This document shows positions 45,962 through 49,290 of a stretch of 64,000 bases of DNA, in pieces (positions within the stretch are counted from its first letter, which is position 1; each line of letters begins with the position of its first letter). The notes beneath the pieces were generated by a model that was not told the DNA's origin, did no database searches, and saw nothing but the letters and a program-made list of their open reading frames with translations. Source of the stretch: Erysipelotrichaceae bacterium (lineage in GTDB: Bacteria; Bacillota_I; Bacilli_A; Erysipelotrichales; Erysipelotrichaceae); assembly GCA_030694975.1 (NCBI GenBank), contig JAUYTU010000035.1, positions 1 through 64,000 on the forward strand, read 5' to 3'. Made by a program: the position numbers and the translations under genes.

Positions 45962-46726
45962 ATGCGTAAATATTTAATCGTTTTTATACTTTTTATCAGC
46001 GGATGCTCAGTATCCGGTACTTCTTTGGAACAACAAATCGATGCCAGTGTTGCTTTTGTATCTTCGCAACCGGCCGTAGAATTAAGAAATAATCGCTTAC
46101 CGCTCTACAGTTACTATTTACCTCGTAACATCGGAAAACGCAGTTCCAATCAATTAGCCGCAACTTTTGTGAGTTACAATGAAGAAGTTGTGTTGAGTCT
46201 CGATATCGCCTCAATCATAATGAACCGATTTTATCGCATTCAGTTGGCAGGGCAGTTGCGACCGTTATACGGGAAGCAAAACGCTCTGATAGCAAAAAAA
46301 GTTTCATTGAATGATATTAACGGAGCGTCGATCGATTATAGAATTGTCATTTTGCCTTTTAGCGAAGACCGATACATGGTATACGTTCAAAGCCAAGAGT
46401 TTTTGGCAAGTGCTATGCTGCCTTTGTCTAAAGTTCAACCGGTTCTTACGGACATGCTGATTGTGTTGCGTAGTGCACAAGCTCAGTCGAACGATATCAT
46501 CAATCTGTTCTCAAACAAAATCGTTATCGATTACGATCGGATATCAAAAGAACTCATTGAGTTTATCGCTCCTGAGTCCGGTACGATTGTTGATATGCTC
46601 AAACTTATTACCGGAGATTTCGATTTTGACGAAACTCTGCCGGATGACTATTATGACGATGATGTCATTGAAATTCCCGATGAAGAACCAAAGGAAGAAG
46701 GCGATGAAGATGTCGAAGGAGAGTAA
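45962..46726 (+). CDS. Unknown lipoprotein with acidic tail
   Basis: A 254-residue protein I do not recognise. A lipoprotein signal ends at FISGC (Cys15). The mature part has mixed secondary structure, and the last 35 residues are very acidic (DDYYDDDVIEIPDEEPKEEG and following). AGGAGGTG precedes the ATG at 45962. In Bacillus ytpP and ytpQ occupy this place; neither resembles it. Its end overlaps ytpR by 23 nt, so the two are likely coupled. Confidence 0.8.
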   Translation: MRKYLIVFILFISGCSVSGTSLEQQIDASVAFVSSQPAVELRNNRLPLYSYYLPRNIGKRSSNQLAATFVSYNEEVVLSLDIASIIMNRFYRIQLAGQLRPLYGKQNALIAKKVSLNDINGASIDYRIVILPFSEDRYMVYVQSQEFLASAMLPLSKVQPVLTDMLIVLRSAQAQSNDIINLFSNKIVIDYDRISKELIEFIAPESGTIVDMLKLITGDFDFDETLPDDYYDDDVIEIPDEEPKEEGDEDVEGE

Positions 46727-47333
46727 AACCACGGTTATACGTAGTTTTATGCATCATGAGTTCTCCGGTGTGCTGATGGTGAAATTTAACGATGAACCAA
46801 TAAGTACAGTTGATCGATCAGCGGATGCTGTATTACTGTACAATACGCAATTTGAGCTGATCGGTGTAAATCTTCTGAATGCTCCGTTTATAAAAAGCGG
46901 TTATATTGAATTGGACCTTGATTTAAAGAATTTTATTGAAAAGAGATTTTCATCTTTAGATTTGAAGATCGACATCGATCAGCAGAATTATTTCGTCTGT
47001 GGGAGAATCAAAAAGGTAGACAACCATCCGCATTTTGATCATCTGCACAATTGCACGGTTGATATCGGAATTAAAGAAATCAGCATTGTTTGTGGTTCGA
47101 AGAATGTAAATGAAAATATGCTTGTCGTGGTCGCATTACCGAATGCGATTCTGCCGGATGGAACGTTTATTTCAGAAGGTAAGGTGGCCGGTGTGCCTTC
47201 ACAAGGAATGTTGTGCTCTTTATCAGAGATTACCGGCGGTAAAAAACCGGTTCAAGGATTAATTGAATTACCGAAAGGCACCGAATGCGGATCCAGTGTG
47301 GATATCGCCGGTCTGGGAGAAACGCTATGTTAA
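46704..47333 (+). CDS. ytpR: YtpR-like tRNA-binding domain protein
   Basis: A 209-residue protein. The C-terminal half is an EMAP II/PheT-type tRNA-binding OB-fold (about 95-200; KVDNHPHFDHLHNCTVDIG, IVCGSKNVNENMLVVVALPNA and SQGMLCSLSE, the last being the family signature). The cellular role of YtpR is unknown. Start at 46704, with AAGGAAGAAGG upstream; earlier in-frame residues lie antisense to no function and are an extension through the lipoprotein gene. Position before murC matches B. subtilis. Confidence 0.88.
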   Translation: MKMSKESKTTVIRSFMHHEFSGVLMVKFNDEPISTVDRSADAVLLYNTQFELIGVNLLNAPFIKSGYIELDLDLKNFIEKRFSSLDLKIDIDQQNYFVCGRIKKVDNHPHFDHLHNCTVDIGIKEISIVCGSKNVNENMLVVVALPNAILPDGTFISEGKVAGVPSQGMLCSLSEITGGKKPVQGLIELPKGTECGSSVDIAGLGETLC

Positions 47334-47992
47334 AAAAACTGATGTCATTGTTTTTTGAAGAAGAGGAAATTGTTGAAGTAAATTCGGTCGAAGAAATCAT
47401 TGAACCTTTGGTTAAAAAACCCGAAGTAAAAAAGGTCGAAGCGAAAAAACCTGAAACCGGGAATATTGCAGAAAAAGAAGAAGCTGTTCTTGAAGTAATT
47501 CGGGTAAAGGAAAAAGAGTTTGTTGATATAAAGGCCGATGATTTTGAAGTCGCAGAATACAAACCGACAGTCAAGAAAATTGATATCGACAAGCAAAAAG
47601 ACGTTGAAATCAAACCGATACGACGTCCGGTCAAACCTGAAGCCAAACCTTATGAATTTTCACCGGTCATCAGTCCGATTTTCGGCCGTTCTGACAAAGA
47701 TGAACCCGTTAAGACGGTCGTTCAATCCATGCCGATGGAAGAGAGTAAAAGTATTTTAGGGACGATCATCAGCCCTATTTATGGAATTACAAAGAACAAA
47801 AACCGTCCGGCCGAGATTAAACCGGCGGCTACGATAGAAAATTTCACTTTGGAGCAAATGCTTGGTGTTGAAAAGAGTGAGAATTTCATGCAAGACAGTT
47901 TTGATCTGATTGTTGAAGAAGATCGACCACTATCCAAGGAAAAGCCAAAAACGCTGATGAGCCTTTTTGAGGAAGAGGAGGAGGGCGAATGA
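47327..47992 (+). CDS. Low-complexity acidic protein in the sftA position
   Basis: A 221-residue charged, probably disordered protein. The same short motif opens and closes it: LMSLFFEEEE (5-14) and LMSLFEEEEE (210-219). SPIFG (116-120) and SPIYG (149-153) form a second repeated motif. No enzyme domain or membrane helix. In B. subtilis the gene between ytpR and murC is sftA, a septal DNA translocase whose N-terminal part is non-motor; this protein may equal such an N-terminal part without the motor. That is inference from synteny. Start overlaps the ytpR stop, end overlaps murC. Confidence 0.75.
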   Translation: MLKKLMSLFFEEEEIVEVNSVEEIIEPLVKKPEVKKVEAKKPETGNIAEKEEAVLEVIRVKEKEFVDIKADDFEVAEYKPTVKKIDIDKQKDVEIKPIRRPVKPEAKPYEFSPVISPIFGRSDKDEPVKTVVQSMPMEESKSILGTIISPIYGITKNKNRPAEIKPAATIENFTLEQMLGVEKSENFMQDSFDLIVEEDRPLSKEKPKTLMSLFEEEEEGE

Positions 47993-49290
47993 TATATCTA
48001 ATAGGAATCAAGGGTTCCGGTATGGCCGCTTTGGCTTGCATGTTGCATGACATCGGAGAAGCGGTTTCCGGAAGTGATATTGATAAGCACATATTCACCG
48101 AAGACGAGTTGCACCGTCGCAATATTCCGGTGTATCCATTTTTGACACATAAGATTCTTGATCACTCTACCGTTGTTGTTGGTAATGCTTTTTTAGATGA
48201 TTTTGAAGAAGTACAACGGGCACGAGCCAATAAAACACTGAAGATATTCAGATATCATGATTTTTTAGGAAAACTGATGGAGAACTATCGGACCATTGCG
48301 ATTGCCGGCAGTCATGGTAAAACAACGACGACCAATATGGTATCGACCATGATGGGCCAGTTCTTTGATACCGGACATCTGATTGGCGATGGGGATGGTA
48401 TGCTGGGTAAAAACGATCGCTATCTGGTGGCGGAAGCGTGTGAATACCGACGACATTTTCTGGCATACCGCCCACAAATCGCAGTCATTACCAACGTAGA
48501 CATTGATCATGTTGATTACTTCAAAGATGAAGAAGACTATGCTTTGGCATACGAACAGTTTTCGAAAAACGTCAGTGAGGTATGCATTGTATTTGGTGAT
48601 GATCCGCGTTCACGTAACTTAAAACTTTCTTCGAGTGTGTTATTTTATGGTGTTGATGAAGGCAATGATGTTCAGGCATTTAATATCGTGGAAACTCCGA
48701 TATCAACTTCATTTGATGTAACGATTCTAGGAAATCATTTTGGCCGCTTTGAATTACCATTTGTCGGAACCCACATGCTCTATAACAGTCTGGCCTCAAT
48801 AACGATCGGTTATCTGGAAGGTTTAACCGCCGCCCAATGCAATCAGGGGCTTTCAATGTTTAAAGGAGCCAAACGCCGCTTTGTCATCACTCAAGTGAAG
48901 GACAGTATCTTTATCGATGATTATGCTCATCATCCGACCGAGGTTTCAGTTACGGTGGATGCTGCTCGCAAACGTTATCCCGACATGACACTGATTGCGA
49001 TTTTCAAACCGCATCGTGTCTCAAGGGTGTTGCACTTTGCCGCAGAATTTGCACAAGCACTGTCGAAGGCGGATGTTGTAGCATTATGTCCCTTTACAAG
49101 CATTGACGATAAGGAAGAAGGGATCGATATTGATATCACCTATCTAGCCAATATGATCGAAGGAAGTTTCATCGTCGATGAAAATGAAGAGGATGCCATG
49201 CGCTTAGCAGAGTATAAGCCGGCGGTCTATTTGTTTATGAGTTCGAAGGACATTTATAATCTAAGCGATTCAGTAAAGCGCTATCAATAA
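47989..49290 (+). CDS. murC: UDP-N-acetylmuramate-L-alanine ligase
   Basis: A 433-residue Mur ligase adding the first amino acid of the peptidoglycan stem. N-terminal UDP-binding GIKGSGM (6-12), P-loop GSHGKTTTT (107-115), NVDIDHVDYF and IDDYAHHPTEV are present in order. ATGA overlap with the preceding gene. Followed by ytxG- and ytxH-like genes and ccpA, which matches Bacillus. Confidence 0.96.
   Translation: MIYLIGIKGSGMAALACMLHDIGEAVSGSDIDKHIFTEDELHRRNIPVYPFLTHKILDHSTVVVGNAFLDDFEEVQRARANKTLKIFRYHDFLGKLMENYRTIAIAGSHGKTTTTNMVSTMMGQFFDTGHLIGDGDGMLGKNDRYLVAEACEYRRHFLAYRPQIAVITNVDIDHVDYFKDEEDYALAYEQFSKNVSEVCIVFGDDPRSRNLKLSSSVLFYGVDEGNDVQAFNIVETPISTSFDVTILGNHFGRFELPFVGTHMLYNSLASITIGYLEGLTAAQCNQGLSMFKGAKRRFVITQVKDSIFIDDYAHHPTEVSVTVDAARKRYPDMTLIAIFKPHRVSRVLHFAAEFAQALSKADVVALCPFTSIDDKEEGIDIDITYLANMIEGSFIVDENEEDAMRLAEYKPAVYLFMSSKDIYNLSDSVKRYQ

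Follow-up and report, generated by a model that had tools for sequence, protein, structure and literature searches.

A motorless relative of SftA encoded between ytpR and murC in Erysipelotrichaceae

SftA, also known as YtpS or YtpT, is a soluble DNA translocase (a pump) found at the division ring of Bacillus subtilis. In the window analyzed here, a whole stretch of 64,000 nucleotides from an Erysipelotrichaceae bacterium, the place between ytpR and murC is held by a gene for a protein of only 221 amino acids. This locus raises the question of what the small protein is, whether it descends from SftA, and what it may do next to a gene for a peptidoglycan precursor enzyme.

The gene and its neighborhood

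The open frame running from the ATG at 47327 to the TGA at 47992 is a real gene, present as one copy in its own genome, and its 221-aa product starts with MLKKLMSLFFEEEE and ends with KTLMSLFEEEEEGE. It overlaps the genes on both sides:

46698..47333 (start approximate), + strand: ytpR (NF045760, E 2e-39), whose stop overlaps the start of the 221-aa gene
47327..47992, + strand: motorless SftA-N-like protein, 221 aa, predicted disordered, without a Pfam, NCBIfam, or PDB match
47989..49290, + strand: murC (TIGR01082, E 8.7e-101), whose start overlaps the stop of the 221-aa gene (ATGA)

As read from the ORFs, the gene order is trmB, glutamyl aminopeptidase, lipoprotein, ytpR, the 221-aa gene, and murC, with two YtxG/YtxH-like proteins, a LacI-type regulator, and tyrS beyond. 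We take this order to match the B. subtilis region with sftA between ytpR and murC, and the NF045760 and TIGR01082 neighbors bear out the first-pass annotation, which had placed the gene in the sftA position. The arrangement is common to the unfused relatives: in all 41 copies examined, the gene ends within about 25 bases of the murC start, and overlap with murC is frequent.

Neither the 221-aa protein nor 31 of its relatives gave a Pfam match or an FtsK motor domain, and no family or solved structure in Pfam, NCBIfam, or the PDB matched the protein and its relatives; a weak thymidylate-synthase match, covering the acidic linker, was discarded as spurious. The membrane helices and the motor of FtsK/SpoIIIE were both looked for in the 221-aa protein, and neither is present. 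A remnant or frameshifted motor was also ruled out, as no motor frame lies downstream and murC overlaps the stop codon. AlphaFold2 predicted a helix at residues 2–9 and low confidence for the rest (mean pLDDT 58.7).

Short motifs on a disordered chain

By profile search, 82 of 87 genomes in the host family and 41 of 43 in its sister family have one copy of the gene, and a single weak match appeared among 16 genomes of other families; this family without a name is kept by nearly a whole bacterial order. Among named genomes, that of Firmicutes bacterium HGW-Firmicutes-10 (L033) is the nearest, and the other close loci are from Erysipelotrichaceae. In G021 and G061, both nearly complete genomes from the host family, no candidate turned up for either FtsK or the motorless protein.

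Mean column identity across the motorless family is 23%, and the conserved elements map onto the host protein as follows:

47327..47374, + strand: residues 1–16, MLKKLMSLFFEEEEIV, N-terminal amphipathic helix and acidic run; K4, F10, and E11 nearly invariant
47651..47686, + strand: residues 109–120, YEFSPVISPIFG, motif 1; S116, P117, and G120 invariant in the family alignment
47756..47785, + strand: residues 144–153, LGTIISPIYG, motif 2; S149, P150, and G153 invariant in the family alignment, spacing conserved
47843..47863, + strand: residues 173–179, FTLEQML, motif 3; family consensus SLDDIL, found in 26 of 33 relatives vs. 0.57 in shuffles
47954..47989, + strand: C-terminal residues 210–221, LMSLFEEEEEGE, motif 4; consensus SLF[DE], L213 and F214 nearly invariant

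Written as a pattern, the family has KKLxxLLFEEE, YEFxPVISPIFG, LGTVISPIYG, SLDDIL, and a C-terminal SLFDD on a disordered chain. Homologs with the same motifs, which the first-pass annotation had proposed to search for, were found: two SP[IMVFY]xG motifs occur in 33/33 non-redundant relatives, compared to 0.0 per 33 in shuffled sequences, and are spaced 32–49 residues apart, mostly 33–38. In the host, they read ISPIFG (SPIFG at 116–120) and ISPIYG (SPIYG at 149–153). The N-terminal hydrophobic-[FY]-acidic motif is present in 31/33 relatives (3.2 in shuffles), its helix having a mean family hydrophobic moment of 0.51 vs. 0.30 when shuffled, and the C-terminal [SDT][LI]F motif is present in 31/33 (1.2, or 1.19, in shuffles). 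Because shuffling gives far fewer matches, the motifs are not due to chance. The family is a disordered, low-identity linker with fixed short docking points.

The same analysis revises the picture of a protein with mirrored ends. In the host, the 221-aa translation confirms that both ends carry an LMSLF-poly-Glu motif and that two SPI[FY]G motifs lie between them. Near-identical ends (LMSLF...EEEE) are peculiar to the host genus, and the mirroring does not extend to the family, where the consensus is KKLxxLLFEEE at the N-terminus and [NQD]xSLFDD at the C-terminus. The idea of two equivalent tips fares less well than that of a lost ATPase: the N-terminal helix has a counterpart in SftA, whereas the C-terminal SLF is a different element. 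Both sister-family proteins that were read lack the C-terminal SLF end and carry two SP..G motifs each (VISPMFG and ILSPFYG; VISPIYG and IISPFYG). At the sister-family loci L116 and L117, the gene adjoins trmB, not murC, and this adjacency is a remnant of the same neighborhood.

Likeness to SftA and probable loss of the motor

Soluble FtsK-type translocases are encoded upstream of murC in two families of the same class (f9 and f13) and also, where murC is in reach, in Bacilli around Exiguobacterium (Bacillales). The first-pass annotation would have been refuted had SftA N termini shown no similar motifs, but they do show them: SP[IMV]xG occurs in 29/31 SftA N regions vs. 0.26 after shuffling, one copy in each (e.g., KPFKPTSIPSPIYGFQ, RPFRPTEVISPVYGRR, EFVSPISGRR, and FFLSPIRGK), and motif 1 follows the SftA pattern F-x-P-T-x-[IV]-x-S-P-[IV]-[YF]-G. 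The membrane-type FtsKs examined have no SP[IMV]xG motif. A scoring matrix that drew on no sequences beyond the motorless family placed its best window at the SftA signature site in nearly all SftAs, with many single scores modest and several within the shuffled range. Many SftA N termini open with an amphipathic helix together with acidic residues (MSWLNKFFDLFLGEKEEE; MNWLKRTLNKLLFKDEVEDE), and host residues 1–16 resemble N termini such as the former. Two f13 SftA N regions (L150 and L152) hold repeats, such as LELDDVLSLLQEEETKPSLFDQLI, that look like motifs 3 and 4 (LDDLL and SLF) in the motorless family.

The 221-aa protein shares with SftA the place before murC, an SP[IV][YF]G motif, an N-terminal amphipathic helix with an acidic run, and a long disordered acidic N-terminal region; as in the soluble SftAs, which are without strongly hydrophobic segments, the helix comes with no transmembrane segment. 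True SftAs carry all three of the alpha, FtsK_SpoIIIE, and gamma domains, whereas the 221-aa protein lacks the alpha, beta, and gamma domains of FtsK as well as the FRFPxxPD and PFNVxM motifs, and has two SPI[FY]G-type motifs instead of one, together with C-terminal motifs of its own. Since the defining motor was tested for and is absent, we do not class the protein as SftA itself; it is a motorless relative of SftA. The homology, judged from sequence, is suggested by the short motif, the place, and these parallels, the linker being too divergent for whole-length alignment to prove it. Membrane-type FtsK/SpoIIIE, a relative of the SftA motor, differs from the 221-aa protein in being membrane-anchored, possessing a motor, and lacking SPI[FY]G.

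A motor elsewhere in the host genome had also been suggested as a check, and the search for a second or soluble SftA motor returned none; the only FtsK (718 aa, C24:236819) has membrane helices and groups with the membrane type. A weaker match in the host (C18, E 9.7e-5) proved by sequence to be a different, HerA-like ATPase. Relatives in both families have one strong FtsK match per genome; further FtsK matches, at about E 1e-33, come from ORFs longer than 1000 aa, which probably encode type VII secretion ATPases. The 34 soluble SftA motors form one clade (FastTree support 0.98, in a tree that left out L155 and L236; 91/100 in another analysis). One SftA-like protein encoded upstream of murC in genus g124 (L155:362-2308), whose motor has diverged strongly and in which no gamma domain was detected, may be an intermediate or a translocase in decay. 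As for the earlier proposal that the 221-aa protein is an N-terminal part of SftA that lost its ATPase, the motif, the place, the lack of a soluble motor in the host, and the single clade of SftA motors all speak for it, and from them we infer the descent itself.

A second motorless protein is found in Exiguobacteriales, with a match in 38/38 genomes (loci including L208–L222). For instance, L046:3996-4904 encodes 303 aa between ytpR and murC, in a genome with one FtsK; the protein carries VPSPIYGF and, toward its end, PPVNVVMTTKDL, after which only a short helix-like tail remains. Its PxNVxM near the C-terminal end is the counterpart of PFNVxMLxxDK, which precedes the motor in 11 SftAs (Bacillaceae SftA). 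Like the host protein, it is motorless, disordered, and located between ytpR and murC, with an SPIYG motif in VPSPIYGF, but it has one motif only, an N terminus unlike the KKLxxLLFEEE helix, and the retained PxNVxM. With this second motorless version occupying the place before murC, at least two losses of the motor are likely, the one in Exiguobacteriales being probably independent of that in the host lineage.

A putative division-site tether and its candidate client

We consider it probable that the protein is a motorless SftA N-terminal module and an unfolded division-site tether, most plausibly on SepF and possibly with MurC as its client. In general terms, it would be what remains of the N-terminal half of an SftA that lost its FtsK motor and would act, unfolded, at the division site, a septal location that its likeness to SftA suggests. 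The N-terminal amphipathic helix would touch the membrane; docking on a Z-ring component, most plausibly SepF, would fall to the SPI[FY]G motifs, of which the presence of two would make it tighter; and the C-terminal half, with its LDDLL-like and SLF[DE] motifs, would hold the client. The best candidate client is MurC, encoded directly downstream and fused to the protein in one genus, although it cannot be the only one, since the sister-family gene is not adjacent to murC.

SepF and FtsA support the recruitment of SftA to the Z-ring in B. subtilis (PMC11790237). SepF was found in 16 of the 18 genomes tested, host included, and not in G012 or G037, the latter carrying a MurC fusion in an assembly that is 84% complete. 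The host family gave no clear FtsA match, only MreB-sized (about 330 aa) and weak ~420 aa matches, which makes SepF the more plausible partner. FtsA of the host family is possibly very divergent or lost, although SepF is present.

The link to MurC is covalent in one genus (g32), two genomes of which, and no others, encode the SPI[FY]G protein and MurC as one continuous frame (L113:2446-4344 and L026:1-1896). Long open frames in G037 and G081, tried as motor fusions, were rejected in that role and proved to be MurC fusions. The g32 fusions keep both SP..G motifs and the LDDLL motif (motif 3 in its LDDLL-like form), and the C-terminal SLF end is gone. A simple reading would be that MurC is normally held by the SLF end, which becomes dispensable once the link is covalent; this stays conjectural because in the modeled fusion MurC is folded while the tether stays free, with no tether–enzyme contact or docking. 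The structure search returned essentially only Mur ligases. Fusions of Mur ligases are known, namely MurE-MurF and MurG-MurC (PMC4929429). The g32 fusion resembles them in linking MurC covalently to another division or wall protein and differs in that the known partner is an enzyme, whereas the partner in g32 is a disordered tether.

The same fusion could be read the other way around, with the protein as a partner of MurC and not a ring tether, i.e., a cytoplasmic regulator or scaffold whose SPI[FY]G motifs bind Mur enzymes. The gene does adjoin murC, frequently with an overlap, and is fused to it in one genus, but the sister family has it away from murC, SftA keeps the motif while being a DNA translocase, and the modeled fusion lacks docking on MurC; we regard this reading as unlikely. 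It is decidedly unlikely that the common, short SPI[FY]G arose independently in an unrelated disordered protein that came to lie between ytpR and murC by chance. Although only about ten residues can be aligned with SftA, motifs evolve easily in disordered proteins, and several SftA motif scores fall inside the shuffled range, convergence would have to account for the operon place, the N-terminal helix, and the extended F-x-P-T pattern common to both, as well as for the other SftA motif retained by the Exiguobacteriales motorless protein.

A different role for the C-terminal end is suggested by the binding consensus of the sliding clamp DnaN, approximately QL[SD]LF. The C-terminal sequence is QFSLF, QISLF, or NLSLF in several relatives, and a [QN]xSLF clamp-binding motif would link replication to the septum. 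This is very improbable: the host reads LMSLF, with no glutamine, many relatives have D or E, and neither the two sister-family proteins read nor the MurC fusions have the motif.

Returning to the tether, its boldest form, in which an SftA-derived tether kept across the order brings MurC, an enzyme of peptidoglycan precursor synthesis, to the septum, covalently so in one genus, is tentative and, in our estimate, somewhat doubtful; if true, the division ring would be where the first amino-acid step of precursor synthesis is held. The first-pass annotation had anticipated neither the MurC fusion nor the probably independent loss of the motor in Exiguobacteriales. The ten-residue SPI[FY]G-type motif, for which we found no entry in Pfam or NCBIfam and no relevant paper in a literature search, is the likely Z-ring docking site. 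The finding separates two functions of SftA, DNA pumping and docking to the division ring. One order keeps the docking half alone and Exiguobacteriales apparently do likewise, independently, which speaks for a separate role of the N-terminal region in SftA, and the fusion to MurC suggests a link between division-site scaffolding and the cytoplasmic synthesis of wall precursors.
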